A DNA stretch of 64,000 bases from Grammothele lineata (Eukaryota; Basidiomycota; Agaricomycetes; Polyporales; Polyporaceae), in contig NDFF03000385.1 in the NCBI GenBank assembly GCA_002150815.3, positions 56,240 through 120,239 of the forward strand. The letters are read 5' to 3'. Under the pieces are notes generated by a model. That model was given only the letters and a program-made list of their open reading frames with translations, had not been told where the DNA came from and did no database searches. The translations under genes and the position numbers were made by a program. Shown one piece after another: positions 37,901 to 61,890 of this stretch. Within the stretch, counting starts at the first letter, position 1. Every line of letters starts with the position of its first letter.

Positions 37901-37905
37901 TAACA

Positions 37906-38670: not shown

Positions 38671-38857
38671 GGCCAGACAGTACGTATCGTTCAGGGAATG
38701 TTCTTTTATAAGACACAGTGCATAATACGCAGTACATCATTGTAAACGATCAAGCCTTTCGTAGCGATATAAGTACACGATTTGTGAGACGACTGTTACT
38801 TCTGTATATGCGGACCCTAGTTCATCCGTCGCGACTGCGGCTCACCGGCACGCACCA

Positions 38858-39848: not shown

Positions 39849-40037
39849 GGCAGGGGACGAGTCTTGGAAAGAGCGGTCGATGGGGTGCGGAGAGCACAGC
39901 GGGAGCCAGAGAGAGGAGGGGAGGAATATAAGAGGGTGCATTGGAGATATGAGAGAGCGGGAACAGATGGGTCTGATATGTGCAATGCACAGTTCAGCAC
40001 AAGGCACGTGAACATGGAAGAAGAAGAAGCGGGGGAA

Positions 40038-40050
40038 GGATATATAAAGG
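40038..40050 (-). promoter_or_regulatory. TATA-type element of gene a
   Basis: Minus strand CCTTTATATATCC, about 190 bp upstream of the start. Similar elements precede gene b (41994-42010) and gene c (43511-43535). Confidence 0.45.
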
Positions 40051-40380
40051 GTCGTGCACGAGAACGTACCTTGTGCGCAGGTTGTCTTCTCCTGTGAACG
40101 CTCCCGCCCTATCTTCCTGCAATGTCTCGTCTGAACGAAAACACGCCAGTGAGGGGCGCTGCAGAGAGCGAGGTGCGGGCCCATGTCCGATCCAGGAGCT
40201 GCGATGCTGATTACCTTTTAGAGCACAGTTATATCGCTCGACGAGCAGTATCACGACGCACCTAGCTGGGCCGGCTCTTCGATCGAGGTAAGGGCACCCC
40301 GCTGATAACGCCGACCACCTGACGGACCATATATTAACGCAGAGCGGAAATGAGAATCGACGACGGGCTGCCGGGGACGT

Positions 40381-40447
40381 ATTTATAGGGTGTAAAGCTA
40401 CCCCCATGAGGGTTAGAGCTGACCGAAGGTTAGAAATTTTGTCCGAA
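40381..40447 (+). repeat. Leader repeat L, copy 2 (precedes palindrome family B)
   Basis: ATTTATAGGGTGTA, TACCCCC, AGGGTTAGAG and AGAAATTTT occur in the same order as at 37834. A half-copy of family B (CACCAGCGGCATG, 40453) follows within 6 bp. Confidence 0.75.
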
Positions 40448-40452
40448 AACCC

Positions 40453-41190
40453 TGCACCAGCGGCATGTTTTCAATACCTCATAATGTTACATAAATATTG
40501 TACTTGTGCCATGGAATACATTGTTAGATGTGATCCGATGTATTAGTGTGCTGACAATATGCCGCGCTTCCTATCTGGGTACGCACTGTACACTAGCGGC
40601 ATGCCGCTGATGTACAAAGTGTACGCACTGTACACTGGCGGCATGCCGCTAGTGTTATTTGTGTACACTTTGTACATCAGCGGCATGCCGCTAGTGTGTA
40701 CAATGTACCCCGAAGACACCAGCGGCATGCCGCCAGTGCACACACAAGCGGTATGCCGCTGATGTACAAAGTGTACACAAATGACATCAGCGGCATGCCG
40801 CTGATGTAGATTCACTACGTGGGTGTATTCATGACACGACATACTTGTATGTATATATGGGTTCTGCATGTCGCGTTAATGTTCTCTACAATCTGTTATT
40901 ATATGTATTAATTACTACACCAGCGTCATGCCGCTGGTGCACAAACATTGTGATCGTGCAGTGAATGCATCTCATAATGTCGTATTCGTTTCATGTGTGG
41001 TACCGTACTGGAGGACAACATCAGCGGCAGGCCGCCAGTGAACGTCGATACCGATAGCTCCGCGAGTCTTTGTGAGTATTTTAGCGATCATTTGCTGGGT
41101 CTCAGACGAAAGACTGTCGAATTATTATTCCATTACGAGAAAGTCGAATGTACACGATAATTTCATGTCATTGGCGGCATGCCGCCAATG
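40453..41190. repeat. Palindrome family B, cluster 1 (9 copies plus one half)
   Basis: 22-bp palindromes with core AGCGGCATGCCGCT at 40591, 40633, 40675, 40717, 40743, 40785, 40918, 41019 and 41169, after a half-copy at 40453. The copies at 40785 (CATC...GATG) and 41169 (CATT...AATG) are perfect inverted repeats with different outer bases. Spacers in the left part carry GTACAAAGTGTAC in both orientations. Confidence 0.92.
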
Positions 41191-41234
41191 CACTGTGTCA
41201 CCACCAATCAAACAAATACAGTGCACACGCGTCC

Positions 41235-41914
41235 TCACTCGACGTCGGAGTCGATGATAGTCTCCATCGTAATGTACACATTGTCGAGTCGGTGTGCCCA
41301 TTCAATCTCAGCCGCCTTTAACTGATTGTACAGAAGAATGATCCTGCGAGCCCACTCAGCCACGCTGGCACCGTTCACCGAAGGTGGATGTGTCAGCCAA
41401 TAGTGAAGTTCGGAGAGCTGATTGTCCATGCGACGAGAGAGGCGGTCGAGGATGTCGATCTTCAAACACAAGCAATATAACTCGTGAAGTTCGTCACGTT
41501 CGGAAGGCGGAGACGGCGGTAGGGCGGAAAAAGAGATGGGGGAGAGGGTACTAGCAACGCTGAGCTAGAACGCATGCATGCGTGAGCGGGGACGGGTTAG
41601 GCGGCGGAAAGAAACATGACTGTACCTCGTCGTCTGCTCCCCATACGGATTGGATATCCGTCAGGGAGGGAGGGGAGATAGCGCGAGTGCGCGAAACGGA
41701 TGCTTCGTTGTGGATGCGCGCTGCCCAGGCCCATAATGCCTCACTCGCCCTTTCTCCGCCGTCTGGTCGACCTGCGAAACGCTGCGCGAGTTGGTTTTGA
41801 TGCTGGGTGAGAATGCAGATACGACGAAAGGAAAGAGAACCGTACGTGTGAAATTAGGATCGACTCGTCGGAGGCGTCGGATTGCGGAGGAGATGAGATA
41901 TCAAGGGAAGGCAT
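41235..41914 (-). CDS. Small gene b: helical protein, hypothetical
   Basis: Three exons: 41914-41846, 41802-41626 and 41459-41235 (sum 471 nt, 156 aa). It starts MPSLDISSPPQSDASDES; the rest is predicted mostly helical (IDILDRLSRRMDNQLSEL, WARRIILLYNQLKAAEIEW) and ends IDSDVE. No catalytic motif, signal or membrane segment is visible. Layout (short acidic N-terminus, helical C-terminus, minus strand, TATATA promoter) is like genes c and e, though sequence similarity is weak. Confidence 0.6.
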
Positions 41915-41993
41915 TTTTGCAGCCCCAGTTCCGAGGGGTGAAAAGAGTGGAGGGAAGAGGGAGAATATCGAAGCGAATGCGCTATAGATGAAT

Positions 41994-42010
41994 GGAATAT
42001 ATAGAAACCG
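41994..42010 (-). promoter_or_regulatory. TATA-type element of gene b
   Basis: Minus strand CGGTTTCTATATATTCC, 80 bp upstream of the ATG of gene b. Confidence 0.5.
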
Positions 42011-42395
42011 GAGCTGCGGGAATGGACAGATATGTACAGTGGGAAATCCAGGGGAGGGCATGTGTAGGCCATGTGAACGGAGGAAGCAGTGGAAGCGAAG
42101 GCAGATATACAGGGGCAGAAGAGATGGGAGGGCAACGCGTACAGGGTCTTCTTGCAGTGGGAATGTCTTCGCATACACGTTGCGAAGTCTAATCTGAACA
42201 AGAGTGCGCGGACGAGGGTCGCCATGGGATGTGAGGTAAGCGATGACGTTGTGTATCAAACACAACGTAGCCGGTGAGATGCAGGAATGGCTCGATTGCC
42301 GTGAGTAGTCTGACATTCAAGTAACAATGCCAGGCAGGCGATGAATTTAATTAACGTCGGGCATGTCATAGAATGCAGACAATTGCGAAGTAGAG

Positions 42396-42416
42396 GTTGG
42401 CGGCGCGCCGCCAATG
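42396..42416. repeat. Palindrome family B, single copy
   Basis: TTGGCGGCGCGCCGCCAATG, with the rare GCGC centre that I take as ancestral. It lies in the 3' flank of gene c. Confidence 0.85.
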
Positions 42417-42487
42417 AGATAGCGTTCAAACTAATCGTACAGTACACGAATTCCGCATGACGATAGACGGTGAGTGACAAAGAAATG

Positions 42488-43417
42488 CTACAACGAATTC
42501 TCCGAGAAGCCGCGCAAGTGCTCGGAGAGCCCGGACACGCTGGACAGCGCCATGTCCCACTCGCGCTGGTCCTCGGTGAGCGTCGCGCGCAGCTCTGACG
42601 CACGCTCCGTCCAAGCCTGGCGGACGAGGACAAGGACGTCCTCAGAGAGGTTGTGGGGATCTTCGGAAGCCTGCGCATTGTTGATGTTTCTGAGCGCTGC
42701 GGCGTGAGCGGCCATGCGATCGAAAAGGATTGGGAGGAGGTGGACGCTTCCGCGGAGACGGTGCAATCCCGGGTAACACGTCAGATACGAAGGCGAGGAG
42801 GGGATTTGATTGTTATCGACCCCAGGGAATGCGTCGTTTGTAGGAAACGCCAATTCCTGAAAGGATCCGGGCTAGGTGAACAACGTACCGGGGGAAGTAG
42901 GAAAGGGGGAACATACGGTGCGTTCGCCCGGGGTGAGCCACATGGCGTCTGCGCGGGTACCGCTGGAGGGGGATGGGGTGTCGGTGGATGTGTGGCGGGC
43001 GTCGTCGACGGACTGAGGACATGTATATTAGATGCGTACTAGCGGTGAATAGAACAAGTTGACTGGACTCACGAGGGGCGGGGAGTCCAGTGCGACGGGC
43101 GAGGGCGGGACAGTTTCGAGCTCTGGCAGCTCAGAGTCGTCGAACGGCTCCTCGTTCTCACGACCAGGTGTGTACCCGAGCACGCGATTTACGTTTGCTA
43201 TGATCTGGATACAAGCAGAGTTCATTACAAAGTGAGTGGCATACAGTGGGACAGGGGTACGAGGATACATACCGCGCGATGGAAGGCGTCGAATGCGTCT
43301 TGATCGATAAGTGGGGGAGGTGGATTTCCCTACGAGAACATCGTCAGCCGATTCGTTAAGCGTGATAATGCTCAGAAAACTCACCTCCACCGGTGTTGCA
43401 GATATGTCGACAGCCAT
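42488..43417 (-). CDS. Small gene c: hypothetical protein
   Basis: Five exons: 43417-43385, 43329-43273, 43204-43073, 43012-42917 and 42856-42488 (sum 687 nt, 228 aa). It starts MAVDISATPVE|GNPPPLIDQ, has a Pro/Ser/Asp-rich middle, and ends in a helical segment (FDRMAAHAAALRNINN, LTEDQREWDMALSSVSGLSE). No known domain. The end (QREWDMAL) faintly resembles gene e (MSDRDWETS) and gene b (AAEIEWAHRL); a common family is possible but unproven. Confidence 0.6.
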
Positions 43418-43510
43418 CCAACCAAGCACTGAAGACGTGGAAGATAGGCGACGGGGCGAGAAGGGGACGGTGAGGGCGGGAACGGGAAACGAGGAGCCGA
43501 TAAGCGGGTT

Positions 43511-43535
43511 GGAATATATATACAGAAAGGGTCAG
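43511..43535 (-). promoter_or_regulatory. TATA-type element of gene c
   Basis: Minus strand GACCCTTTCTG followed by TATATATATTCC, about 95 bp upstream of the ATG. It shares the CCCTTT..TATATATTCC layout with gene a. Confidence 0.5.
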
Positions 43536-43731
43536 AAGCGTGATCAGACGGATAAGTCAGTTTCAACAACCGGACGATTTGATGACGTACGTTTCTCTCG
43601 AACGAGATTACTCGGTTGCGACTTCGGAGGGCAGTAGGTCTCTGGTGCTAACCTACGTGTATCGTCGAGGATATACGACCGTTAATGCCTCTGATGTCGT
43701 ACAAAAACACGTGTCAGGGGCCTATTGTTTG

Positions 43732-44060
43732 CACCAGCGGCATGCCGCCAGTGGGGTGTACGTGGTTAGTAGTACGTAGGGTATTCCACTACCTCTCATA
43801 TGCGCGCTGCGATGGCGTATACAGGACGTCATATTGTTTGTTGCGGCATCGAGGTATTGGACGTCTACACCAGCGGCACGCCGCCAGCGCGCGCAGCGTT
43901 GACACCGGCGGCATGCCGCCAGTGGTTGAGCACCGACACCGGCGGCACGCCGCCAGTGTCCTTGGGTTGACACCGGCGTCACGCCGCCAGTGTCCTTGAG
44001 TTGACACCAGCGGCACGCCGCCAGTGCTGTGATATTGACACCAGCGCCCGGCGGTTAGTA
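43732..44060. repeat. Palindrome family B, cluster 3 (6 copies plus one decayed)
   Basis: Copies start at 43732, 43868, 43903, 43937, 43971 and 44004, with a decayed one near 44040. The last five are spaced 33-35 bp, and spacers partly repeat (GTCCTTG.GTTGA). Located between genes c and d, upstream of c and downstream of d. Confidence 0.9.
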
Positions 44061-44197
44061 TACCAATAAGATGAACGCAAAGATATCAACGCCTTCGGCC
44101 GAACGTCCCAAGACCGCAATCAATACACACGGCATCGTCAATTTTACCAGTCGACTACATCGATACTCAGATATCATCCAAATATAATACGTCCAAA

Positions 44198-46472
44198 TCA
44201 GTCATTCGCCATAGATATGTCCGGAATCGCGGACCACATTCCTGAATCGTTGTAATCGACGTGTTCAAAGTCGGTATAGATCTCGTCCTCGGTATGAACG
44301 ATTCGGTCACCAACCCTCCAAACTAAGTATGCGCGGCCGTCAGCTTCATTGTCAAATTCGAGCACTCGTCCATCCTGGACGAGACGTTCGCAAGCAGCGC
44401 TATAATAATTTACTCAATCAGGCTTTGTATAGTAATAACCACGGATCTACCGTGAACCCACCTGACGAGCGCAATATTGTTGCAGCCTCGACCGGGCCAA
44501 TCATAGAAATCCAGTGCTATGAGAATGTAAAGAGGCGCGTCACGGCGCGAATGCGTTTTCACAAACCATCGCAAGGTGAGCCACAGGTCAAAAGCAATAG
44601 AGTTGATCAGCGAGGGGAGGTGTACACCCTGTGATGAGAAAGGGCATTCCGGAAAGAGTCCCCCTGCCGCAAAGCCATGTCGTATGTCATGCCTGCGACG
44701 CTAAACCATAATCTACAGTTAGATTTCAAGAATGAAGCGTGCTCACGCTGAGAACTCGTGTCAGGATGATAATGCACTCACATGGATGGTAAGACATGAT
44801 ATGACTCGGGTAACAAGACGAGCGTAGTATATGTGCGGTAGAAGCTCCGATCGCTCCATGTAGTGAGGGAGGTGGTCTGTGGTGAGAACGACAGCGGCCG
44901 TACCATCCGGTGCGAGCATGTAGCGAGGCCATGCTCGCAGGTAGCAAGGAGAGCCGATGTGGAAATCTTCGGCCTTGTCGAAACGTCCTTGCGCTGTGAT
45001 GGGATGTTCTGCTGTCGGGAGGAGGTAGTGGACAAAGATTTCACCGGTGCTGTCTTTGACAGTGAAAACAATGCTATGGTCGGTGACTCTGTAGCTTGTA
45101 ATAATTCCAAGGACACCAACCTGCCACAATGAGTAACAGGAAAGAGAATGAGTTGAATATAGTAGCATAGAAAGCTAGACAACTACGCACGCGTCGGATG
45201 GGCCAACCCAAATAATACCATTTGTCATGGGTAGCGGCAGTATTGTATGGTGAAGGCGCTTTTGGATGAAGACGTTTGGCAATATCATCGAGTGACAAAG
45301 TGCGTGGATCTGCCACATAGTTTCCCTAGGAATTGGAAAGAGATGGGTGCTCAGTCAATGCCATGAGATGTGGAAATGAACCACTTCAACACTTACAACC
45401 CTGATACGATGGGTATCTGGGCAGTGGGACATAATGGAGGCGTTTGCAGCTGCAAGCACAGCTGGAAGCGAAGAAGCGTATGTGTTGGGGACTGTAAAGG
45501 ATTCATGTGAATCAACAGCAAAACCACAAAGGATCTGGCAATATAGCAAATACTTACGAGCATCGCGTTCTGGATCATGTCGAGACAGTCTCCATGACAA
45601 AGCGATGGCATGACTGCGGTATTCATAAACTGAAGTTGTTTGAGAAGGAGGGGCAGAGCCAGGGACCAGTATGGTAGCTGACTGTTGAGTGGCAAACAAA
45701 GTGCGCTGGGAGAGGGGAGAAGAAAAGGGGGGGATTGGGACGCAGAGAGCGTCATATGCATGGAGTTCTACCTGAGTGGCAAAGTCAGTGATGGCAAGGA
45801 CATCGAAGCTGTCTAAAAGAGTAGTAGGCAAGCGGAACGGTGCGGAAGGGAGCGCGTCACGAAGAGGAAGTGGGTTTGTCTCGGGAAGTTGGTAAGCGGA
45901 GCGAGATGGGGAGTTGTACGCTGTGGGTGGTAGAATAGGGGAATGGGGTGGCGGAGAGTGCAAACCAGCGCCGCTGAGATGATGTTGTTGTGGAGAGGGC
46001 CCTGTCATCAGTGGTTGATGAACATCTGTGAGCGGAATGAGTTGGGAGAGAGACCGAAGAACAGTGCGACAGGGAAGGAAGGCTGGAGGAGCGACGCACC
46101 AATGTGATCAGGCAAAGGACGGGACTGATGAAGTGAACGGATGTGCGGGGCGTGGGCACTGGTGGGCTGCCTCGGCTGAGATGGAGGCGGGGAATGTTGT
46201 GGAGAAGGAGGGCGAGGCTGAGATGGAGGAGGGGAGGACTGAGGCGGAGAGGCATCAGAGGGGTCGAGCTGTCGTTGAGAAGAGAGGGGATCGTCGACGT
46301 TGTAGTACTGATCAGTGTTAACCTGTCTGAGTAAGTCGTCGGAGATATCGTCTAAGTAGCCTGGGTAGAGTTGACCTGCACAAGAGGCAGCATTGGAAGA
46401 GAGAAGGTGAGCGCAGGTCGGCAAAGGGTCGGCAATTATGATGCGAACTGAGATGTACTCACTAAACGACAT
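44198..46472 (-). CDS. OB-fold plus winged-helix protein, Stn1/RPA2-like
   Basis: Eight exons: 46472-46463, 46375-46100, 46025-45558, 45491-45397, 45325-45191, 45120-44782, 44700-44462 and 44399-44198 (sum 1764 nt, 587 aa). Residues 25-280 are proline/serine-rich. About 300-420 form an OB-fold: WYYLGWPIRRVGVLGIITSY, FTVKDSTGEIFVHYLL, then LRAWPRYML. The PIR.V...G.......DSTG pattern is that of Stn1, the CST subunit that protects telomere ends. A C-terminal segment (LYILIALDFYDWPG, CERLVQDGRVLEF, YLVWRVGDRIVH) looks like a winged helix, as in Stn1 and RPA2. It lies about 18 kb from the telomere between palindrome clusters. The Stn1 relation is an inference from fold pattern; a diverged or element-encoded homolog is possible. 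Confidence 0.6.
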
Positions 46473-46955
46473 GGATGGTGCACAGGGGAGCCGAGGAACT
46501 GATGCGAGAGGAGAGATGAGCGGGAGCGAGGTCGAAGGGCAGAGGAGACGGGGCGCGCGAATTAGAAAGCGCATGAACGAAACGCGGACTATGCGTGGGA
46601 GACGCGGAGAGCCGAAAGGATGGGGTGGGAATGACGGAAGATATGTGTGCGAAATCGGATGAGTACCGGATAGTCGGCCGGTATACACAGAGAGCGGGTC
46701 GATGATATGAATGGAAAACAGGAACGAACGTCTGCAAGTGGCTGGATGCGTTAGAGAATAGGGATCTCTTGACGACAGCTGAGGAGATATGCATGTTTGC
46801 GCCGTTGGCGGGAAGCGGGACGTTGGTCAAGACGTACGTATGTCAAAGGATGACAATCTAGTATGGTATCTGAGAAGACTGTAGCATGCGTGCGCAAAGA
46901 ACAAACCACCACAGCACCCGACGGCGCACAAGCATTGACGTGTTGTGGATAGCGA

Positions 46956-47214
46956 CACCAGCGGCATGCCGCTGGTGTTGATGGCCTTATGGATGTGCGT
47001 CATGGGGATGTTTTGGCGCTATGGATATGCCGCCGTTCACACACGACACCAGCGGCATGCCGCCAGTGCTTTACATGCACCAGCGGCATGCCGCCAGTGC
47101 TTTACATACACCAGCGGCATGCCGCCAGTGCACCAGCGGCATGCCGCCCATGCCTTACGTGCACCAGGGGCATGCCGCCACTGCTTTACGGGCACCCGCG
47201 GCATGCCGCCAATA
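46956..47214. repeat. Palindrome family B, cluster 4 (7 copies)
   Basis: Copies start at 46956, 47047, 47078, 47109, 47131, 47162 and 47193. The first is a perfect inverted repeat with core CCAGCGGCATGCCGCTGG. From 47047 the period is 31 bp, except one directly abutting pair at 47109/47131, and spacers (CTTTACAT.CA) repeat. The cluster separates the divergent starts of the OB-fold gene and the large gene X. Confidence 0.92.
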
Positions 47215-47572
47215 CCGTTCGTAGACAGAGCGCGAACATCATCATCAGTAGCGTTCGCAGGTATCAACGGCTTCTATTACTCACTCTGGATAGGTGCCTA
47301 TGGTGCGATGTCATTTCAGGTCCAACGTTAGCATGTTCGTGACCGTCACGTTGCTACATTAGGGAATTCCGTGACACGTAACACGGCGATCTCCGAATGT
47401 GACATTGCGAACACGCGGCGACAGCGAGGGCGACGGATACCCAAGCACCTTTCCTGCGCTTCCTTTCTCTCGCTTGTCTCGCTCTACTTCCCACTACCGC
47501 TCGACTCGACACCCCACAGCGAGATCAGCACTTGTGTATTCGCATATCGACACTCACCGAACAATTCTCGAC

Positions 47573-50500
47573 ATGTCTGCCGTCGAGGTGAGTCTCTCGA
47601 TCGCCGATCGCCGATCGGATTTGACTGATCGCACTTACCTGGCAACCCGGGACGTAGGGACAAGTGGCTAGCAAGCCACCCGAGGAGAAGACTCAGGAAA
47701 CGACCACGGAGAAGACTCAGGAGAAGACTGCGGCTGCTGATGTGAGCGCATCTACCGGAGATGGTGAGGGGAAGGCGTCTGAGGGTACGGATCCTCCCGG
47801 TGGCGGAGGTCAGGGTAAGAAAAAGATGACGGCGGCAGAGCGGAAAGAGGCCGAAGAAACGCAAATCAAGAAGGCCCGCGACGACGCACGCAAGAGCATC
47901 CAGGACTCGTTGAGCGCGGGCGGGCTGCTGCCCGGCGACCTGCCGACGACGCGCGAGTTCGAGATGGACGAGCAGCTCGCGCAGTTCGAGTTCGGCACGG
48001 CCTACGTCCGGATCATCGGCGAAGGCGCCTCGAAATTCATGGCCGGCCAGTACGTCAACCGCGAGCTGGACAACGACCACGTCGGCGGCATCCTCGGCAG
48101 CCTTAAGGTGCACGGCAAGATGGACCGCAAGAACCCGATCCTCATCGGGCTCTCCGAGGACGACTTCGAGGTGGACAGCGTCGTCAAGGACTGGGATGGC
48201 AAGTCCCGCATCCCGATCTTGAAGCTGAAGGATCCGAGCAAGCCGATTGTGCTTCTGGGCGGCAACCACCGGGTGCACACGCTCGAGCCGTACCTCGACT
48301 TCCTCTTCGCCAGCAAGGTGGAGCTCAAGAAGGAGCTCGTCAACTCGGCGAACGGCGAGCCTACGAACGGGCAGCAGCGCGGCGTCGACGACATCCAAGA
48401 CGACATCGTCGAGCTGGAGAAGGAAATTGTGGGGGCGCACATGTGGTACGCGCGCGTGTACGACATTAGTGAGCAGCCGGCATTTTTCGTGCTTTTTGGC
48501 ATGCAAGCGGGCGAATGAGGCTAATCAATTGCGGGTTTTCAGATGCGGGGCGAAAGCTCCTGACGCACGTCTCCCAGAACGAGTACACCGTCCGCAAGGA
48601 GGAGACGGTCGGCGAGAAGTTCTGGCGATGGGTCACGGCTGTGAACGATGAGCATGACTGGCGCAAGTCGGTCGTTCGTCGCAAGCCGGCCGAGGAGGCG
48701 ATGGAAGTCGACACGCCGCCATCGAATGACCCCCCGGTCGCGACTAAGCCCGTCGTCTGCCCCGAACTCGGCACCAACGACTGGTATGAGATGTGCCGGA
48801 TCGCGACGGGGATGCCGGCGAAGGCGGAGAAGAGCAGCGACAAGGGCTCGCAGGGGAAGAACTACCGAGGATACAAGCTCCTGGGGAACCGGGTTGCGTG
48901 GCCTATGGTGTGGCCCGCCCACCCGTTCACCTACTACCACAGCGAGGCTATCATCCCCATCACCGAGCTCGTCACGATGCACACGCCTTCGAGGGGGACA
49001 CTCCAGCGCGGCGGCTTTGTGAGTACTTGTTCGCATCGCGAACGCGCTGAGCTAACGTCTTTGCTATAGCTTAAGAGTCTTATGTGGCGGGAGGGCCTGC
49101 GCGGCATCGCGCTGATTGCGACATACGGCCCATGGAAGGAGTCACCATCGCACGCGCACACGACAGCGTTCGAAACTCATTGGCGCGCTCTTCAAAACGA
49201 GGTCGAGGCGGACATGGCGGACGACGACGGTAACTACGTACGGGCTAAGCGGAACGCGGACTCAGAAACCTGGGCCGCGCGCAAGCAGACGTTCGAGGCG
49301 TACCAAAAATTCGAAGACGAGACGATGGAGACGGGTTTCTGCCGTGCGGTCTGGCCGATCCCGTTGCTGAACGAGATCGACAAGATCTTCGTCGAGGTCA
49401 TCGAACCGAACAAGGACGTGCTCGGCCGGATGGACGAGCAGCGGTACGTGCAGGCGTTGGACATTTTCTGGACGCGGACAATTGCTGTGGCGACGAGGGC
49501 GTGGGACGCGCGCGTAGCGGAGATCGAGAAGGCGGCCGGCATGGAGGAGGAGGTGCTTGCGCTGAAGCGAGCGAAGGAGAAGATTGCGTGGGTGCGCAAG
49601 CTGACACAGATGGGGGCGACGTTCCCGTTGCCTCTCGCGACGAAGGCTTACTTCGAATGCACCCGTGAGCTCGTCGCCAACATCGACTGGGGCATTTTCT
49701 GGGTAAGTCAATGATATCCCTATATGAACGGACATTGGCGGCGTGCCGCCAATGTTCTAAACGCATACATCACTATTGTCATCGCTGGCGGCGTGCCGCC
49801 GATGTCCGCTATGGGGGATGGACAGCATCAGCGGCGTGCCGCCGGTGTCGCGCTTATAGTCCTTTCAATGCAACGCCGTCATCAGTTGTCGCGACGGCGC
49901 ACAATGTGCACTGGCGGCATGCCGCTGGCGCATGCCGTGCACCGGCGGCATGCCGCCAATGTTGATACCACACCCGTAGCGAACACTTGATTGCCCGCGA
50001 GCTGCGTTCATCGGCTCAAGTCGCTGGTGCTTATGCACTAGTCAACCACACCATTCTTCATATCTCGTTCTGCGGCTGCTCGTTCGTTCTTCCGGTCATG
50101 TATCTCACCGTGTTCTCTTATCAGCTGACGTTTTCGCTGGATCCCGTCTGCGGTCTCACAAAAGCCTTGGACAGGCTCTGGGTATACGACTTTGCGGGCC
50201 TCCTTCACTACAACGTTGAGCACGACAATCTCCTCCCCTCTTCATACAGGTTCTTGATCACGGTACGTATTCTTACGTTTGACCTTTCGTTACATTTACA
50301 TTTGTTCAACCGCAGTTCTGGACCCATTTGCTTCGCAAATCGGAGGAGCTCGCGGTCGTTGGCCGTCTCATCAGCACGCTCGTTCAGCCGAAGCATAGCG
50401 CGTTCTTCAACGCTGATCGCGGAACAATGATGGCCATATTCAAACAGGCGACTGCCGGACGAGTACGCTCGGAGGACACTGATCCCACCGGGGATGGTGC

Positions 50501-53500
50501 TCCCGCAAAAGGCAGGCGTCGTGGAACGCGCGGGAACAAGGGCGCAAAAGGGGCCAAGTCGTCCAAAACTTCCGACGGGAACGACGGCGACGACAACAAT
50601 GACGCCGACTACATCCCCGACAATGTCACCGAGACCATGAAGAAGAAGATCGCGGGCGTTTTCGAACTCCTCGACCGTCCTTTGTCCGACAAGGAGAAGG
50701 ACAACATGTGGAACATGTTCTTGGCCATCGGTCGGGGCATCGTCGACGAGCAGTCGAACGCGTCCGTCGCCGCGAAGTTGAGCAACGCGAAATGCAAGTA
50801 CGTCGCCGGCGTTCAGAAGCGCGACTTCTCTCTCTCCACCCGCACCGACCTGCCCCTCCTCCGCATGCTCCGCCTTGCCGGTGGGTCCTGGTTCATGCTC
50901 ACCGCTTCGCGCGATCGCAACTCCACCGCCGAGATCTACGCTGCTGCCCTTCCCTTCGCTGACATCGTTTATAACGATCTCGTCCGCCCCCTCCTCAAGG
51001 TCGACGTCGCCCGCCTGCTCCGCGACCACGTGATCAAATTCTTCCGTGTCGTCTGCTTCCCTCGAATGCGCGGTCCAGGCGATCCCCTCCCTCCCGAGGG
51101 TGTGTGGCGCCAGTCCCTCCTTCGCTACTGGCTCCCTTGGGACTGGAATACCGTGGCAGACGATATTGCCAAGGTCGCGCTGCCGGGAGGACTCGGTACA
51201 AACGCCACTCTCGTCGACTTGAGCGAGCTCGACGAGAGTGAGCAGCTCTTCGTTCGTCTCGCACGCGAGCACCAGAAGCTCGCCGCGGCCGCCCAGTCCT
51301 GCCTCGCCCTCGCAGCTGCCATCGGCATCGACCGTGACGAGGCCACTGGCAAGGCCAAGTTCTACGCGGTCGACGGCGCGCTCGACAGCGACGTCAGGTC
51401 CCCGTACAATAAATTCATGTCGGTGAGTTTATCTCGTGTGCTTGCGCCCTTTTCTCCCACTTTATTGCTTATCACCCACTGTTTTCTCTTAGAGCGTCGA
51501 GACCAACATCCAGCGCCTCATGACGCGTTACTCGGGGTACGCTGGGGACTGGGTCAGGCCCGCCGGTCGTTCCGACTGGCGGCCGACTGGCTGGCAGCGG
51601 TTTTCGGACAACGTCGAAGTCGACAATCACGCGTTCGAGTCCCTCGCCCAGATGAAGGCATGCGTGCCAGACGACTTCAAAGCGTACCGCAAGGCCGTCA
51701 CGAAGACCCTCGACCGGGACCTCCCCGAAATGAAGCGCAAAAAGTACACCGACGACGAACTCCTCCCGCAAGACATGGAGAAGGCGCTGGAGGAGCATCA
51801 GCGCACGCTCGCTGAGCGGAAGAAGGCCCAGGAGGCCGCAGCGTCCAGCTCGACCCCTGACCGCAAGGGGAAGAAGAAGGCCGTTTTCACCCCGGAGTCC
51901 CTGCGGCGGGGTGCAACGCCGTCGCCGAAGGGCGGCTCGAAGGGCGGACGCTCTCTGCACGGTCGATCGGACGATGAAGACGGTGGGAACGGGTCACCTT
52001 CGGGGCGCCGGCGGTCCCAGCCTGCCCCTGGAAAGCCCCTGCCGCGAGCCGATAGCGAAGAGGAGGAGGAGGAGACGATCCCTCAGCCTGTGACGCCGAA
52101 CAAACGAGCGTCGCCGCGCGCGTCCTCCAAGGGCGCGAGGCGTTTGTCGCATCCGCGCAGCACGCCCCCTGTGTCGGACCGCGGGTCTCCGTCACAGCCC
52201 GCCACGAAGACATCGAACGCAGGCTCTGCTGCATTGCCGCGTCCCTCCACACAATCGCCTAACGCGCCGCCTCCCCTCTCGTCGCCGCTGGCTACGCAGA
52301 TCCCGAACGCGGGTGCTGCAGGACCGTCTCAGCAATCACCTCTGACCCCTATCCAGGAGCAGGCCGAGGTGCCTCTTGAGCAGGTCGACGACGTCAGCAT
52401 GGGGGACTCCAATGGTACGCCCACGCAACCTGTGACGCAGATCGACGTCCCTCGTCCCAAGCCGCACCCGCTGCTGCGCGATTTCGCGGTTCCCGATAAC
52501 CCGTTCAACGCGCAATGGCAAAAATACAGAGACGCTTTGAAGGCAGCCCAATTTCAGCCTTCGGACATCGTCGGGATGAACGAGGACGACGTCTTAGCGT
52601 TGCTCGAGACGGCGGCGACGGACCCGCATGCGGGAGACGATGGGCCCGAGGAGGACGATGACGATGACGACGACCGCGACGCAGACGGCTCCGAGCATGC
52701 CGTCTCTGATGAAGATGCGATGTCTCGCCACATGCGCATGGATGGTACGTCGTTCGACTTATGCTTTGTTGTCCCGGTATCGGAAGCGCTGTCCCAGCGG
52801 CATGCCGCTGGTGCGTTCCACACACGTCCTTGACGAATCGCAGCTTCGATTCCCTGATCGTCTGCACTGGCGGCATGCCGCCGGTGCGTCCCGCTCGACC
52901 GAGAGCGCTCACGCATACATCGGCGGCATGCCGCCGGTGCCTTCATTCCGTAGAGATCGACATCGGCGGCCTGCCGCTGGTGTCGGACATCAAGCGCACG
53001 TGTTTGGATCGTTGCATTGGCGGCATGCCGCTGGTGTATACACATATTCATATGGTATACATCAGCGGCATGCCGCTGATGTACATAATCGTCGCTGGTC
53101 TATCGCAATCGTTTCCATCCCTAACCATCTTCACACGGCTCATATCTCAATTGATTAAATTCATAGGGCCGGAGCTCGACGCCATCTTTGAAAATGCCTA
53201 CGTGCCGGACTCTCAACCCGGCGAGGAGATGGACATAGGTAAGATTTTAACACAATTCCATCCGCATATATTCACTCAGCCGTACACCCATCTTCGCATT
53301 CATTGACCTTACCATTGTAGATGATCCGAATACGGTCGCCAAGCGTCCGCGTGACCCCGCCGGTACGTTGACCCGTTTTCGCATCCCTTTCTATCGTTGT
53401 GTTGCGCGCTATCCGCTGCGTCGTCTCATTCATCTCGTTTAGATTCTCCCTCGAGTAGCACGTCCCCGGGAAAGCCCGAGAAGAAGCGTGCGAGGCCCTC

Positions 53501-53753
53501 GCTCGACCCCTTCGATGACCCGACGCCCCAGGATCAGGTCCACAAGCAGCTCAAAGCGGGGAACCCACCTGTCCTGGAACGCCGCAGCCTCCGCAACCGT
53601 TCCGTTAGCAAGCCACCCAGCGGGTCGTCATCCCGTCCCAAGCCGCCCAGCAAGTCCGCGCCCGAGAAGAAGGGCAAGTCGGACAAGGGGAAAGGCAAGG
53701 CAACGGACGGCTCGCGACGTGCCGCCGTCGATGCGGACACGATCTTCTCTTGA
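47573..53753 (+). CDS. Large gene X: nuclear-type protein with ParB/sulfiredoxin-like motif
   Basis: Ten exons: 47573-47587, 47658-48468, 48543-49018, 49070-49702, 50125-50262, 50316-51422, 51493-52744, 53167-53238, 53321-53362 and 53443-53753 (sum 4857 nt, 1618 aa). Residues about 114-215 read YVRIIGEGASKFMAGQYVNR, a helix (DNDHVGGILGSLKVHG), then PIVLLGGNHRVHTLEP. This matches the ParB-fold order (target strand, L..SI..G helix, G-x-x-R). The rest is unrecognised. Around 1150-1450 it is low-complexity, with basic, Pro/Ser and a run of aspartates, and the end is lysine-rich (KPEKKRARPS), suggesting a nuclear protein. Introns 4 and 7 are about 422 bp each and full of family B palindromes; the other introns are 50-82 bp. 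Confidence 0.75.
49733..49961. repeat. Palindrome family B, cluster 5 inside intron 4 of gene X
   Basis: Five copies, starting at 49733, 49783, 49826, 49909 and 49940, all within 49703-50124. The first (CATT...AATG) has matching arms around a GT centre. Confidence 0.9.
52792..53081. repeat. Palindrome family B, cluster 6 inside intron 7 of gene X
   Basis: Six copies, starting at 52792, 52865, 52918, 52961, 53015 and 53060, all inside the intron 52745-53166. The last is a perfect CATC...GATG palindrome. Confidence 0.9.
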
Positions 53754-54757
53754 GCCCTCCCTGTCGCCCTGTCGTCTTGGACTGCCGTCTGGTACGCCCT
53801 GCTCGAACGCTTTCGTACGCCGTCCCTTTCTCTCTCCTCGTCCCTTCCGTCGTCCTTGCGCGCGCACTTCGCGCTTCATCTACCTGTATATTCTTTCGCT
53901 CCCCTTGCCTCGTAGCCGCAGATTCTCGTCCCTCCGTCGTGTTCAACACGCGACGTCGAACTTCGTAGCTCCCGTTCTCTTGCATCGCTCCTCGCCCCCC
54001 CCTCCGTCGACGTGTTGTTGCGCATATCACGCACGCGACTTGTACTACTAGTCCCTTTCGCTCATTCTCCACAGCCACAGACGATATTCGTCCCAGTTCT
54101 AGCTTGTTCTGGTAGCTGCGCCGCGCGCATGTTTTTTTAGTCCCCCCAAATACACGCTTTTCTCTATCATTCTGATGCGACGTTGTTTCGCTTAGTTGTC
54201 CGGCACACTATCCCTGCAGCAACCGGTTTGGCCTCGCCCGCCCTTGCCTGCCTCGCTTCTGCGCTTTCCGACGTGTCCCTGTATCAGCCGCGTTCTCCGC
54301 TCCACTCCGCTCTGGCGGTCCGCTATTCGCTTTGCTCACCACGTTCGCTGCTGCATACATCGTTTGCAGAGTATTACTCGTAAACAGACGTTCCGTTCTA
54401 TTCTCTCAAACGTCTGCTGTGCAACAGCAAAAGCCGTTGAATAGATCTATGCGTAGTAAGCATTTAACTTTTTGACTACGGTTTGTCTTCAGTGATCCGC
54501 TTGAGTCAGAATTTCGGCATGGAACATGGTTCCAATCAACAGGTGCAACCAATTGATGTGGTCTGCATGGCCCACCCCGAACCCAGCCCGGGATCCGCTC
54601 GCCGTCCGCAACCGTCGGAAATGCTAACTCTTGCTTAGTGTGCCTCAGGCGCACTCTTTCCGTTGGCTTGTTTCGCTCTCTCAGATTCCTGCACCCTTTA
54701 GTCCTTTGAATCCATCCATCTCCCTCTCCGGTTTGCAGACGTGTAAGCCTACTCACA
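53754..54757. other. Intergenic between genes X and Y
   Basis: About 1 kb, pyrimidine-rich, without palindromes and without a gene. It presumably holds the 3' UTR of X and the promoter of Y. Confidence 0.5.
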
Positions 54758-57700
54758 ATGGCCCATGCTCCTCTCCCTGGTCGCAACGGCTCAACTAACG
54801 ACGTTCGGTGAGAATGCGTTAATACCACGACATAGCGGCTCGTCTCGTCCGCTAATTGACGTGTTGATTTCTAGGGATGACGAAGTCGCAGGCCCAGGAG
54901 TAGATGCTTACGAGGACGCTGAGGACCTCGTACAAACCCGACTCTTCGACCTCGCATTCGTTCCACCGACACTCGTCGCTGAGGACGGCCTGTCGCAGGA
55001 GCGGTTGGGTTATAGCGTCCGTGGTGGCCCTGCGATCGCAGAGGATTACCGCACGCACTATCACACTCTCACTCCTACTCCTCTCCATCTGTCGACACTG
55101 GAGCGAATGTACCGCAACAGCGACGAACGAGGAGCGTTGGCCGCAATCCAACAGGTCCATCACCTCAAAATCGACGACCGCTACATATACGATAACCAGG
55201 ATCCTAACTTGGTATGGGCTGTGAAGGATGTGAGTGTTTCTGTCGATGTGGTCTATTTTCCTCATCGAAACCCCTGTTTTCCCAACTTGTTTCGCTCTTC
55301 GCGCAGTTCCGCTGGGACTATGACGCGCGCGTTCCGCGAGAGATGGGTTTCGACGCCGTTCTACCCAACCTCCACATGCCAGGCGTTCGCGAGTGGCCCA
55401 ACTGGTCCTTCAACATGAACCTCTCCCGCTCGCATTGGCAATATCGTGGCGACCGTCAATTTCTCGGCTTCAGTCCGAGTGGCCGTGCTCTTCACATAGG
55501 TCGCACCGTCATCGAGGCCGACGTGTTCTTGATGTGGGCACCGTCGTCTGCGTTAGAACCAGGAGCCGACCTTGCCACCGTCGAGCACGACAAGGCTCCC
55601 ACTTCAATGAGTCCTCAGCTCCGACGATTGACCCTGGCTCTTATCGCGCACTTTATGGTGAAGAGCCACTATCGGGACGTATACCAAGTCAACCCTTACC
55701 CAGATATCAGCGACGAGCGAACGTTCAAAGCGCAATGCAGTATCATGTAAGTGACGTTTTCCCTGACATTCGTTCACGACATCGTGGGGCCAGTGGGATG
55801 ATGTTGTTGGTGTCGATCTATCTGTGGTACCGGCGGCATGCCGCCAGTGAACAACCTTGGGCACCGGCGGCATGCCGCCAATGACAATCATATGGCGCTG
55901 GCGCGCGCATTGATGCGATGTACTTGCACCAGCGGCGTGCCGCCAATGACCATCATGTGGCACCAGCGGCGTGCCGCCAATGACCATCATGTGGCACCAG
56001 CGGCGTGCCGCCAATGCCTCCCAATCGTAGGAGTCACGGTCATCTGCAAGGCGCAGATGACATTGGCGGCGTGCCGCTAATGCATCAACATTCGAGACAT
56101 TCATTCGGGGAAGTATTTTGTCAGCGTGCCGACAACGCACCACGACGAAATATACAGCGGTCGATGCTGATTGAAGCTATGCATTGTACAGGGACAATCC
56201 GTCACATCCTTTCTCTGTAGAGCAGCTGGAAGACTTAAACTACGCACTCCAAGAAGGATTTGACGACTGGATGGAGAATGCACCGCAACAATACCGTCAG
56301 ATCTCCGAAGTGCAGAATGCAGTGCCAATTGCCGTTCCCATAAAGTACGGTCAAGACCGTCGCATCTGCGTGAGAGCAAATATGGACCAGGACGCGAAGA
56401 TGTGGCAAGAGCACATCGATGTCAGCAAGCTGTTGAGGATGGAAATGGCAATGGCCATTCATATTGCGTAATGTGTTCTTATTATTTCCATTCGTTTGTA
56501 CCTCACTTACGCCATATTTGGATCAAGGGCTCACGAGGTCGACGAATGGGAACCTATTCCACTCCGCACGATCATCGAGAAGAACCCCGGGGGTTTATTC
56601 GACTCCTCAGATCCCGAGAAGCGACACCGCATTCGGAACCTTCGAGACCTTCCCCTTGTCGGCGCAGACCAACGCGAAATACCGATATTCAACGCCAGAG
56701 GTCATCGCGTCGCTCGTCGGATCCCCTTGACGGTGCCTGAACGCGAAAACCTCCCGCTGCTTCAGGACCTCTCTCGTACTCACGAGCTTTTCAGTACCGG
56801 TTGGGCCGAGCACGCCGAACTCAACAACGATGAGCGCGACGACGTCCACGTCGAAGGCTTGCTCGACGACGAAGACGATCGCGCAAAGCAAGCTCGCTTC
56901 TACGTCTATCCTCTCGGCTTCACAAAGACCATGGGCCAATTCCAATCCCCTTCCCTCATCGACCCTCTTAATCGTCGCATGCCCAGCTTCGCACGTCCTT
57001 TCACTAACTCTCTTGTCGGACCGTTGTGCATTACGGGGGGCGGCTGCCAAATCTACAACCTCTACGCCCATTTCGTGCGCTCAAGCTCGAAGGCTCATAT
57101 CGCCCAACGGGGTATTGCCACAGGTGCTGCGAGCGGAACTTACGCGCATGAGCGACGCCACCAGCGATACGCAAAAGACCTGTTCTTCGAAGTCGATACA
57201 TCCTTCCCCCACGATCGTCTCGCTACTCAGATAGAGAACATCGAGAACACCTCGCTTCGCTTCGAAAACGTCATCCTCTTCCATTTCGACCGCATGAAGG
57301 ACGAGTATCTTACAGGCGACAGATTCTACCGCGAAATCGTCTGCGGTTTTGCTGACCTTTTGCAGCATCCGGACGTTATTCTGCCCATTCGGTCAACGAC
57401 TACAGTTTTCAAGCCCAATGTTCGCCCTCCCTTCATCTCCGCCTCACGTTATTCCACGTCGCTGACTGTTTCCGATACCCTTTAGGTCTTTCCGAACATG
57501 CTTCTCTGGTCCACTTTCCCGTTCACTACGTTACTCAAGAAGCTTTACCGCCATAACATCCTCCCCTATACGAACTTCTCTAAAAATTCCTATCCTAGCC
57601 CTGTTTACATTGAGATGATCGCCATCATTGAGCGGCTTCTTAATTTCGCCCATACAGGTCATTCCCGCGTTCTCCCCACGTCTCTCTTGGGTTATCTCTC

Positions 57701-59813
57701 TATTCTTGACTCTGTCCTCCAACACGGCTTCCCGTACATTCCTCGTATACTCGCTTTTGGAGGCGACGACCGCATGGAACCCCACATTAATATCGTCGAT
57801 TGGCCCATACAGCCCCGCACCAAGAAACCTCTCGTGGCCTCACAACGCGCACAAGAACTGACATATGGCAAACCGTTTTTTTTCGTAAGTTGTGTTCATT
57901 CTTTATGTGAATTCCTGTGGCGCGCCACAAATTCTAGGCCTCGTGACGACATTGGCGGCGTGCCGCCAGTTCTGGCGCTTATTGTAGCACGGGCGGCGTG
58001 CCGCCAGTTCACGCACTTTGAATGACACCAGCGGCGTGCCGCTGGTGATCGACCCGTTGTAGACTGGGTACACCAGCGGCGTGCCGCCGGTGTCTGTTCT
58101 TAGCCCTATGTATCTCTAACATCCGATCACAGGAGTACATGACACGCTTCCGTATCTCCGTCCTCTCCTGTCACCCTGAGTTTGCACGGCGTCCCCAGCT
58201 GCCGGCCTCTCAACAGCGGCTCTATGTTCTTGGAGATATCGTCTGGGAGTCGTTGCTGGAAGACGTCAAACAAGTCGTCTTCTCACAAGTTAAAAAGGAG
58301 ATTGAGCCCATTATCAGGGACCCCGCGCACCCTCAACAAGGATGGGCTATCGACCGGCAACTCGCTCTCAAGACTTGGCTTAAGATCGACGATGCCCTCT
58401 CATACGGGAAGCAAGACGCCACCTTCTCAACTCTCGTTCGCGCTGTCGCCCCTACGCACGTTGACATCGCTCATGGCCTCCCTCGCTCTAAAACACACAA
58501 CTGGTCCCTCGCAGACTTCGTCGTCGACATGTTCGCCCAAGCCCTCTCCTCCGCCACTTCTCCTTTCCGCGCACCCCTCCGTCCTAAGGGTTCTCTCGGC
58601 CCGGTTCTCCGCATAACTATCGCTCACGCACGTGAGATTCTTAGACCCTCGCCCGCTGAAGACGCCGACAAAGCCTTTAAAGGCATCCTCGTGAAAGTCC
58701 TATCCCAACGTGGCGTACATTTCATCCCAGACGCTCTCCGCGCAGAGAACGGTCAAGTCCTCTCTAAGGAACCATCCATCCGCGCCTGGACGTTCCTGGG
58801 CAAGAAGAACGACGGTCACGATTTCGTCCTCGCCAACAACGTCCCGCCGGAGATAGCAGCAGAGATCGGCCTCACCAACGCAGCGCAGCAAGCAGCCATG
58901 GAGGACGTCAACGTAGAGTGGGATACTTCAGAGATTCCTATCTATCGTTTCGCCCGCGTCCTCGACAACACTTCCCTTCCATACAATTTCGACCGCTCCA
59001 TCATCCCCGAACATCCGATCAGCGCCATCGACGAGGTCTACGCTTGGGCGTACAGACGCCTCTCGAACGATCTACGCGATTTCAAGTGCCATCTCGCCCT
59101 CATCCTCGCCTATCTCATCTCAAAGTTGGTTCCAATCGTCTCCTGGCCCCCACGCGCTCCCATCGACACATCCAACCTTTCTTTCTCCCAGCCGCTCATC
59201 TCTATCGCGACCGTCCGCCGTGTTATCCCTTGGGTCCAGCGCGATTACACCAACCCCCATAACGGCCACAGGGAGGAGAGTAGTTACTTCTCTGTCGCCG
59301 CCGTCGTCTTCCTGGCCTGGATCGATCACAAGTCTCCGTTACATGCCAGTATCGCTAGGGATAAGAAGTTTCTTACCCAATGGAACGCTAAGCAAGGTAC
59401 GCTCCATTTTACGATGCGCTTTCCAACCACGTTCACATTCTCTTGTCACGTTTTCAGGTCCCAAGTACTTGCACACCGTCAACCTCATCCGCATGGGCAT
59501 CGCCATGACCAGTGGTTCGCGTTTGACGAATTCGTGCCGTTACGGCTCTGGCTACAAGGTGTTGCCCGAGAATCTTTTGAAGGCATGGTATGACGAGATC
59601 GTTACCGCTCTCAAGGATGGTCCGAACGGTCCGACTCGCCTCCTCCTGAAGATATTCGGCCCCAGAATAGTCAAGATGCTCCGGGAGAGAGGCAATCTCC
59701 ATCCCGAAAGCGACGTTCCGATATATGTGCCCGTCGCGTCGTCGTCTCGTGCTACAGAAGACGATCAGTTCGAATGGGAGGAGGAACCGGAGCCACGCCG
59801 TCGTCGTATATAA
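54758..59813 (+). CDS. Large gene Y: unrecognised protein of about 1343 aa
   Basis: Eight exons: 54758-54807, 54875-55229, 55307-55746, 56192-56467, 56528-57419, 57486-57884, 58133-59396 and 59458-59813 (sum 4032 nt). It starts MAHAPLPGRNGSTNDV and ends EEEPEPRRRRI. It is a folded-looking protein, rich in aromatic and charged residues (for example GFTKTMGQFQSPSLIDPLNR and KPYGK-type loops), without signal peptide, transmembrane helix or any enzyme motif I know; no reverse-transcriptase YxDD or transposase triad is seen. Same strand as gene X and 1 kb downstream, so the two may work together. Introns 3 (445 bp) and 6 (248 bp) carry family B palindromes; the other introns are 60-77 bp. Confidence 0.72.
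55829..56082. repeat. Palindrome family B, cluster 7 inside intron 3 of gene Y
   Basis: Six copies, starting at 55829, 55862, 55927, 55961, 55996 and 56061, within 55747-56191. Three consecutive units of about 34 bp share both palindrome and spacer (TGACCATCATGTGG), showing local tandem amplification. Confidence 0.9.
57949..58092. repeat. Palindrome family B, cluster 8 inside intron 6 of gene Y
   Basis: Four copies, starting near 57949, 57989, 58026 and 58071, within 57885-58132. All have the GT centre. Confidence 0.88.
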
Positions 59814-60120
59814 TAGTCGTTTTATGCTGTCCTCGTAACGCCTTCCCCATCTGTCGCAATCAAGTCGCTTCATCCCACCGTCGTGAGACGGTGTGTATAT
59901 AATAGTTTGTCCCGTTCTATAGATCTTCCGTAGAGCTCCGCGAATGTAGCGTCGCAATCTTCTCCAATGGATCATACGCATCGTTTTCTCCCGATGCATG
60001 CGCACACCAGCGCCACACAGGACTATTCGTTGGTTGTGATGCACCTTTGGGATATGTACATGCCATCATGATATTCACTCAGGGGATGTACCCCGGACGG
60101 TGTCCAGAATCACATGGATT

Positions 60121-60430
60121 TGCACCGGCGGCATGCCGCTGGTGTTCTGACGAGCTGGAGACACGCCGCTGGTGTTCTGATGCGCTGGCGGCACGCCGCT
60201 GGTGTTCTGATGCGCTGGCGGCACGCCGCTGGTGTTCTGATGTCCTGGCGGCGGGCCGCTGGTTCGGTAATGCACTGGCGGCACGCCGCTGGTGCGCTGA
60301 TACACTTGCGTCACGCAGCTGTTGATGACATTTGCAATAGGCCTTGCGCGCAGACGACACGCCGCCGATATTATGGAGCACTAGCGGCATGCCGCTGGTG
60401 TTAATATGCGCCGGCGGCATGCCGCCAGTT
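60121..60430. repeat. Palindrome family B, cluster 9 with exact 30-bp period
   Basis: Seven units start at 60121, 60151, 60181, 60211, 60241, 60271 and 60301. Each has a palindrome followed by a TTCTGATG-like spacer. Two further copies follow near 60379 and 60409. It lies 3' of gene Y. Confidence 0.92.
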
Positions 60431-60648
60431 CCTTCAAAGACGTCTCTTCACACTAATCTATATGATTATGAGCCAATCCCCGTTCAATGTTTGTATACGG
60501 TTCTTCGCTCCTTCATGTATACATAGTCGATCCAGTACAATACTACATTACGCCCAATGATATTGTTTTCTCTAATCGATAATACGCTCCAAATGGTGCC
60601 CGCTGCGTGTATGTGATCATAATAGTAATACATCGAAAAACTACGAGA

Positions 60649-61340
60649 TCATAGGAGATCGCGGCGCTGTGTCTCAATCCATTCTCCAAGATGGAGATCG
60701 TCACGCTGCCACCCGCCAGAGATCCACTTGGCAGACGTCTCCCAATCTCTGTCAGACATCGCAAGCTGATCGAGGGTAGAGTCGACACGACGACGCTGCT
60801 CCGCCGTCAGCGAGCTCAAATCCCCGTTCGTTACCCCAAACCGATGAAGAACATCCACTAACTCCTCCACCAGACTCTGCGACCGACCAAGCTCCCGGAT
60901 CAGCTGCCGCAGCTGGTCCCTTGTGCGGTCAGGCATATACACCGCTCGCTTGATCGCATCCGCACAGCGCGGGTGCACGGTCGCAACGACGGCCTCGATC
61001 TCGGGAATAGGTGGCTCAAGTCGTTCGTTCCCTCCCTTCCACCAGGTTTGCCACAGGTCGTCTGGGTCATTCTCCTCTTTCTTGCGTGCTCGTTTCATCT
61101 GCATGCACAAATTGATATCGCTGGTAAGCCTGCCGATCTCTCATCGTGCGACGCATCTATCTTACGTTCGGGTTCGTAGCGACGTCGAAATATATATTGT
61201 TCTTCCATGCCTCTTGTCTCTGTACAAATTCTGTTAGAACATTCATTTTAACGGCCCTTGGTGGAACGACTAACACTCTCTTTCACAGTTCCCTCGCCAG
61301 CCTTGTCCCCACTCCCAACGCCCTGCGCTGAAGACGACAT
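60649..61340 (-). CDS. Small gene e: charged helical protein, hypothetical
   Basis: Two exons, 61340-61287 and 61098-60649 (504 nt, 167 aa), joined across a 188-nt intron (ACT|GTGAAAG...GCATGCAG|ATGAAA). It starts MSSSAQGVGSGDKAGEGT, then a basic KRARKKEE patch that could be a nuclear signal, then helices (TRDQLRQLIRELGRSQSLVE, RRRVDSTLDQLAMSDRDW). No known domain. The second exon is secure as an open frame; the first exon and the long intron are less so. Confidence 0.55.
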
Positions 61341-61711
61341 TGTATTGATGAATCAGGGGAGGAGATGGGAGTGCGAAGGATAGTGTATTAGATCCTTCTG
61401 TCCCATGTCCAGCTCTTCAAATACCCACATGCTTATCGATCGAGTTCATCGATCGGCCCGGACTTCCAATATACAGGCACATGCATGCATGACGTAGTCC
61501 ACCTTCGGTTCCTAGACGGACGTTCTTTGCATCGTATGAATCATCTGTTTCCTAATACCCCTTCTCATTGAGCTACTCTCATATTTGGCAGCGTCGATAC
61601 TGTATTGGATCAATCTTCATTTTCGCTTTCATTCCTCTTTCAACCACGTGACTGTGCTAATAACGCAAGACAACATATTTTAACCGATCCACCATGGTAC
61701 TCTTAGACTAA

Positions 61712-61890
61712 GCATTAGCGGCATGCCGCTGGATCACTTAAGCGTCACCAGCGGCGCGCCACCAATGCATTGAACGTCACCAGCGGCACGCCGCCAGTTC
61801 ATTGACTGCACCAGCGGTGCGCCGCCAATGCATTGAACGTCACCAGCGGCACGCCGCCAGTGCATTCACCATCACCGGCGGCACGCAAGC
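61712..61890. repeat. Palindrome family B, cluster 10 (6 copies, last one truncated)
   Basis: Copies start at 61712, 61746, 61778, 61809, 61841 and 61873; the last ends abruptly after GGCGGCACG. Spacing is about 32 bp with a repeated TGCATTGAACGT spacer. This is the telomere-proximal limit of the family. Confidence 0.9.

Follow-up and report, generated by a model that had tools for sequence, protein, structure and literature searches.

Arrayed palindromes near a chromosome end of Grammothele lineata: putative protein-binding sites of a presumed mobile-element lineage

Near one chromosome end of the basidiomycete Grammothele lineata, a 22-bp palindrome is repeated many times between genes and within introns. 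What are these palindromes for, and to what kind of DNA do they belong? We analysed the surrounding 64-kb stretch (C235:56240-120239, hereafter the window) within a genome of 41.8 Mb in 252 contigs. We suggest, with moderate confidence, that the palindromes are degenerate binding sites for a dimeric protein, tagging lineage Z within a family of mobile elements located near chromosome ends.

Placement and shape of the palindromes

An earlier note on this DNA had described more than 50 near-identical palindromes in ten clusters, and this description held. At up to three mismatches, the 22-mer CAYYRGCGGCNNGCCGCYRRTG occurs in 56 copies in the block 40,381-62,000, which form nine arrays and one singleton at 42,395 when grouped with a gap of 600 bp, and in none in the remainder of the window. 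With the same tolerance, the core AGCGGCATGCCGCT alone gave 55 window matches (mean of 100 shuffles 4.0, maximum 10). Core matches at 11,537, 38,572 and 49,100, with three mismatches each, fail as full 22-mers at this threshold; the last of these falls within a gene A exon.

In place of the seven local gene models proposed before, we found three solid multi-exon genes (A, B and C) and three small ones (D, E and F). Measured against the models of A, B and C, 35 copies are intergenic, 21 intronic and none exonic; the exons of these three genes occupy 10,629 of the 21,619 block positions. When the ten palindrome groups were placed at random, they missed the exons (those of A, B and C, plus the main frame of D) in none of 20,000 placements, which bears out the avoidance of exons noted earlier. 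The palindrome-bearing introns are the four longest among the 23 introns of A, B and C (248-445 bp versus 51-98 bp). Along the window the copies are arranged as follows:

40591..41190: palindrome array 1, 9 copies, starting 210 bp in from the left end of Z
42395..42416: one palindrome on its own, flanked by small genes E and F
43732..44026: palindrome array 2, 6 copies, downstream of gene C
46956..47214: palindrome array 3, 7 copies, in the promoter between the divergent genes A and C
49733-49961: palindrome array 4, 5 copies, inside gene A intron 4 (49703..50124, + strand, 422 bp)
52792-53081: palindrome array 5, 6 copies, inside gene A intron 7 (52745..53166, + strand, 422 bp)
55828-56082: palindrome array 6, 6 copies, inside gene B intron 3 (55747..56191, + strand, 445 bp)
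57950-58092: palindrome array 7, 4 copies, inside gene B intron 6 (57885..58132, + strand, 248 bp)
60123..60430: palindrome array 8, 7 copies
61713..61862: palindrome array 9, 5 copies, upstream of gene D

The Z half-site reads CAYYRGCGGCR, with GCGGC almost invariant and the outer bases degenerate. The outer variable triplets of the two half-sites are identical in 9 of the 56 copies, where shuffling expects 9.96, and at the position pair 4/19 the most frequent combination is C opposite A (25 of 56 copies), which cannot pair. A hairpin would require matching halves, but two protein subunits, each reading one half, would not. The independent variation of the half-sites therefore favours dimeric protein sites over hairpins, and a hairpin or RNA function of the palindromes was disfavoured on this ground. 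Among the roles offered by the earlier note, binding sites are thus favoured by the independent half-sites and by the conserved places of the arrays (see below), whereas the same data speak against hairpins; a role in marking chromatin, comparable to the chromatin anchors it had listed, would come near the reading that we favour. Comparison of one array region with phage records gave no similarity.

Genome-wide, the Z family occupies 78 places at up to one mismatch, versus 1 for a reversed-pattern control. Among 50 of these 78 places that were listed, 33 are on C235 (the window), 13 on C59 and one each on C36, C82, C140 and C141. At three mismatches the excess is smaller (218 places versus 80 for the control). 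The family is thus confined to one block within the window, as had been claimed, but not beyond it, given the further copies on C59, C36, C82, C140 and C141. The left 40 kb are free of the Z family but carry a different palindrome array, of the GGTGCGCGGCGCACCGCGCACC type, at 38,044-38,660.

Left ends, flanks and paralogous elements

Z has an exact left end at 40,381, where it begins ATTTATAGGGTG. From there, window positions 40,381-45,312 match C59:73529-78460, at the end of that contig, over 4,932 bp; upstream of the left-end base, no similarity was found between this C59 copy and the window. The ATTTATAGGGTG end is also present at window position 37,834, at C59:61896 and at C117:53504 (minus strand), giving five left-end junctions on three contigs with five different flanks. 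We refer to the element at 40,381 and C59:73529 as Z, to that at 37,834 and on C117 as Y, and to that at C59:61896 as X. Z and Y each occur in two different flanks, which represent different sites or rearranged ends and not a dated movement, since the assembly may hold two haplotypes. The relevant window features are:

37834..40380, + strand: element Y, apparently truncated; its palindromes form an array at 38044-38660, and Z starts at 40381
40381..40420, + strand: left end of element Z (ATTTATAGGGTGTAAAGCTACCCCCATGAGGGTTAGAGC...), 99.86% identical to the C59 copy from here and with no similarity before
61901..63870: CpG-depleted, AT-rich tail without palindromes, CpG observed/expected ratio 0.26
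63876..64000, + strand: telomere repeats (TTAGGG type)

The order in the window is Y (2,547 bp), Z, tail and telomere, and Y and Z lie in the same orientation, both left ends pointing toward the window telomere. On C59, X and Z likewise share one orientation; no telomere was seen on C59 or C117. Z measures at least 21 kb, its left end being defined and its right end not located. The left end of X breaks into a copy of gene A on C59, in which the match to A ends at 61,900; between there and the next element, no convincing match to the later part of A was found, and decay could hide it. As far as sequence can tell, the family has a fixed left end, multiple flanks per element and two same-orientation elements stacked toward the window telomere, and the palindrome block is one among several putative mobile elements with defined left ends, beyond what the earlier note could see.

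Some further observations concern these elements. The Y array (GGTGCGCGGCGCACCGCGCACC type, 38044-38660) has a spacing of ~73 bp, and the same type is found on C117. X contains a 176-bp tandem repeat in six copies (C59:62608-63695). Window positions 36424-36819 share 96.7% identity with part of C141 beside Z-like palindromes and are possibly a remnant of a third element.

Genes A and C are arranged head-to-head, and this pair recurs on C156, C53 and C59, C53 beginning with telomere repeats. Identity to window A is 35% in C156, 26% in C53, 37% in a C59 piece and 21% in a C36 relative; for C it amounts to 39% in C156, 35% in C53, 60% in C59 and 35% in C219. The elements on C156 and C53 carry palindromes of their own, for which patterns were written after copies had been seen, and the examined stretches of both (14 kb and 9 kb) hold no Z-type copies. 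On C156, TATGCGCKGCNNGCMGCGCATA occurs 22 times in 14 kb at up to three mismatches: 5 copies in the corresponding A intron, 17 outside modelled genes and 0 in modelled exons; five copies at C156 1,957-2,249 fall beyond the modelled part of A. Elsewhere, this type is absent from the window and from C53 (9 kb) and has 2 copies in C59 (30 kb); genome-wide it occupies 31 places (C156 26, C124 5; control 0). On C53, CGRARNYRRMGGNNNNCCKYYNNYTYCG is present in 19 copies in 9 kb at up to four mismatches (5 in this A intron too, 14 between genes and none in exons); eight more matches at exactly 5 mismatches, 6 of them exonic, look like noise and were left out of the count. The intron matching A intron 4 measures 397 bp in C156 and 366 bp in C53, with five palindromes in each. 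The window, C156 and C53 thus differ in their palindrome family but carry it at corresponding positions: in one and the same intron of A, in the promoter between A and C, and downstream of C.

A further type, GTGCGCGG-N4-CCGCGCAC, was found at 37 places (control 0), of which 18 are on C117, 7 in the window (the Y array at 38,044-38,660), 6 on C59, 5 on C36 and 1 on C204. The closest paralogous element, on C59, carries Z-like palindromes, as do C36, C82, C140 and C141, so the boundary of a palindrome family appears to track relatedness and not to define one family per copy. C156-type arrays were also seen in inverted order on two contigs (C124:53067-53252 and C156:14832-14983).

Candidate binding protein, CpG content and rival explanations

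According to the reading of the palindromes as protein-binding sites, an element-encoded protein, most likely A, would bind the arrays of its own element; occupied arrays would keep the element chromatin open and unmethylated; and, with the splitting of lineages, site and binder would change in concert. This reading draws on the non-coding placement of all 56 copies together with their presence in the four longest introns, on the different palindrome families at equivalent places in diverged elements, on the independently varying half-sites, and on CpG content. The CpG observed/expected ratio is 1.18 in Z and 1.16 in the left 36 kb but 0.26 in the palindrome-free tail, the drop occurring at 62.0 kb, directly past the last palindrome array. 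Part of the tail (62405-62984) is a decayed relative of C59:~53113-53704, which has palindromes on either side. Compared with this relative, the tail shows C>T or G>A at 60 of 116 CpG bases and 54 of 236 non-CpG bases, and the opposite change at 16 of 228. The tail is also partly related to C141 and C36, and its far end matches the start of C219 (78%), a shared telomere-adjacent sequence. Thus, palindrome-bearing elements retain their CpGs, and some adjoining palindrome-free DNA appears to have decayed by directional C-to-T change.

A is found together with palindromes in the window, C156, C53, C59 and C117/C36. No match to gene C was obtained in C117 and C36, where similarity was weak and limited to proline-rich parts, and C219, which has C, showed neither a match to A nor, within the 8 kb read, any palindrome family. 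This pattern favours A as the binder. Binding by A, an anti-silencing effect of the arrays and movement of the elements are what we infer. Weighing against A, C82, C140, C141 and C124 have palindromes without a match to A or C, although they may be fragments. Age could also account for the CpG contrast.

The gene models of the window element are:

41236..41920, − strand: small gene E, uncertain model, also in the C59 copy of Z
42488..43440, − strand: small gene F, uncertain model (reading frames), also in the C59 copy of Z
44198..46472, − strand: gene C, 8 exons, 579 aa, with a Stn1-like OB-fold region (weak evidence)
47573..53753, + strand: gene A, 10 exons, 1,618 aa, the candidate binder of the palindromes, without a match to any family
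54758..59813, + strand: gene B, 8 exons, 1,343 aa
60652..61340, − strand: small gene D, main frame 60652-61103, the rest uncertain, with a relative in the C156 element

Pfam scans covered A minus its last ~140 residues, B and C, as well as D and F in part. No convincing Pfam or PDB match was obtained for A, and a similarity search with the A region gave no match; a profile search returned a single metagenome fragment of 156 aa, which is 89% identical across 103 aa and unlike A in its remainder. A ParB-like reading of a GGNHR motif in A was considered and dropped; no ParB N-terminal or helix-turn-helix domain was matched in A by Pfam or PDB, and fold prediction was uninformative, with low confidence for gene A exon 2 and the gene C OB exon (pLDDT 45 and 44).

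Gene C is weakly Stn1-like, judging from three weak matches within one stretch: Pfam Stn1 (15.9 bits, below the cut-off of 21.5; E 0.0065), human STN1 in PDB (4joi, E 1.2, second of 2 matches) and, with a C family profile, S. pombe Stn1 in PDB (3kf6, E 0.044, first of 2 matches). Two of five C family members match Pfam Stn1 at E up to 1. A genome search with PF10451 (Stn1) yielded no hit, but neither did its controls. The C219 copy of C could be the ordinary cellular Stn1. Gene B has a single relative, in Chiua virens (27% identity), whose source record names Pfam PF26608, although a Pfam scan of that protein found no match. A distant B paralogue (28-34% identity by exon) lies at C219:116901-121417, ~76 kb from the C paralogue. 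Gene D (60649-61140) gave a weak, sub-threshold Pfam match to EAD2 (E 0.0012). Further to the left, window positions 16795-17916 and 33162-34297 form an inverted pair, 68% identical over 1.1 kb, possibly of paralogous genes.

Could the arrays instead be end-tethering, capping or partition sites, through which a dimeric element protein and the Stn1-like C link the element to telomere maintenance or to a parS-like segregation? We regard this as unlikely. The sites are palindromic and clustered, the window element adjoins a telomere, C53 starts with telomere repeats, other copies lie on contigs of which several end nearby, and gene C shows weak similarity to Stn1 in Pfam, human and S. pombe. However, tethering would not call for arrays that recur in particular introns and between A and C, in their promoter, and the ParB-like motif of A gained no support from Pfam, PDB or structure prediction.

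Somewhat less probable again is that the arrays are subterminal repeats, bound by a transposase or integrase and needed for movement. The first array begins 210 bp in from the left end in both Z and Y and 192 bp in from it in X, but arrays run through the entire 21-kb element, internal introns included. In addition, no inverted copy of the left end, of the kind that bounds a classical cut-and-paste DNA transposon as a terminal inverted repeat, was found in the 16 stretches scanned, and the Pfam scans of A, B and C matched no transposase family.

Transcription factors of the Zn2Cys6 type recognise CGG half-sites. A host factor of this type that represses or activates the element genes would suit the CGG-N4-CCG core of Z and C53 and the arrays in promoter and introns; yet one factor should select one site, whereas diverged elements differ in their palindrome, and the Z family is rare elsewhere in the genome, so we consider this explanation improbable. 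Functionless hairpin mini-repeats or satellite arrays spread by slippage are the least credible alternative and very improbable, for although slippage probably amplifies several arrays, which have 30-42 bp tandem units, the half-sites do not covary and arrays of different sequence recur in the same intron and promoter of diverged elements.

Returning to arrays bound by a protein of their own element, we tentatively propose a new class of fungal chromosome-end mobile element: intron-bearing DNA with one fixed end, stacked telomere-ward, with a Stn1-like protein and a private pair of protein and palindrome. Its lineages would mark themselves through arrays in introns and promoters, might thereby escape subtelomeric silencing, and would arise when protein and palindrome change together.

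Comparison with known systems

The element is assigned to no known family, and, judging from titles and abstract starts, the openly available papers listed describe neither the palindromes nor the elements. Starship elements carry a DUF3435 tyrosine recombinase, for which A, B and C as scanned gave no Pfam match. ParB-parS is a bacterial partition system with clustered palindromic sites; the likeness lies in such sites beside a gene whose product may bind them, the difference in the unsupported ParB homology, the spread of sites throughout introns and the location at a eukaryotic chromosome end.

HeT-A forms head-to-tail arrays, and MoTeR is a telomeric retrotransposon. HeT-A/TART, MoTeR and FoTeR resemble the elements of the window in that elements of one orientation are stacked toward the telomere, the inner ones apparently truncated. 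The Grammothele element differs in its intron-bearing genes, in being a multi-gene unit of at least 21 kb and in that no reverse transcriptase family was found in the Pfam scans of A, B and C, which sets it apart from terminons as well. Terminons, which are telomere-associated, are also large multi-gene elements at chromosome ends. In bdelloid rotifers, they are giant retroelements that incorporate the Penelope-like retroelement Athena (PMC7943196).

In its way of working, the element comes closest to the VANDAL transposons of Arabidopsis with their anti-silencing VANC proteins, which bind the motifs of the element and remove methylation; the corresponding observations here are indirect CpG footprints. 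VANC motifs are tandem repeats in VANDAL introns and upstream regions that differ between families (PMC5735166). Alike are the short, arrayed, family-specific motifs, mainly non-coding, in introns and upstream of the element's own genes. In contrast, the palindromes described here are 22-28 bp long and belong to a fungal host and to regions near chromosome ends; by the tests made, the element is not a VANDAL, as the scanned gene models gave no Pfam match to a Mutator-like transposase or a VANC homologue. If our reading is correct, fungi independently evolved a self-marking like that of plant VANDALs, near chromosome ends where strong silencing is expected, in elements with a possible copy of a telomere-capping protein. 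The palindrome families of the paralogous elements would then provide ready pairs for studying how protein and site change together and whether bound arrays counteract silencing.

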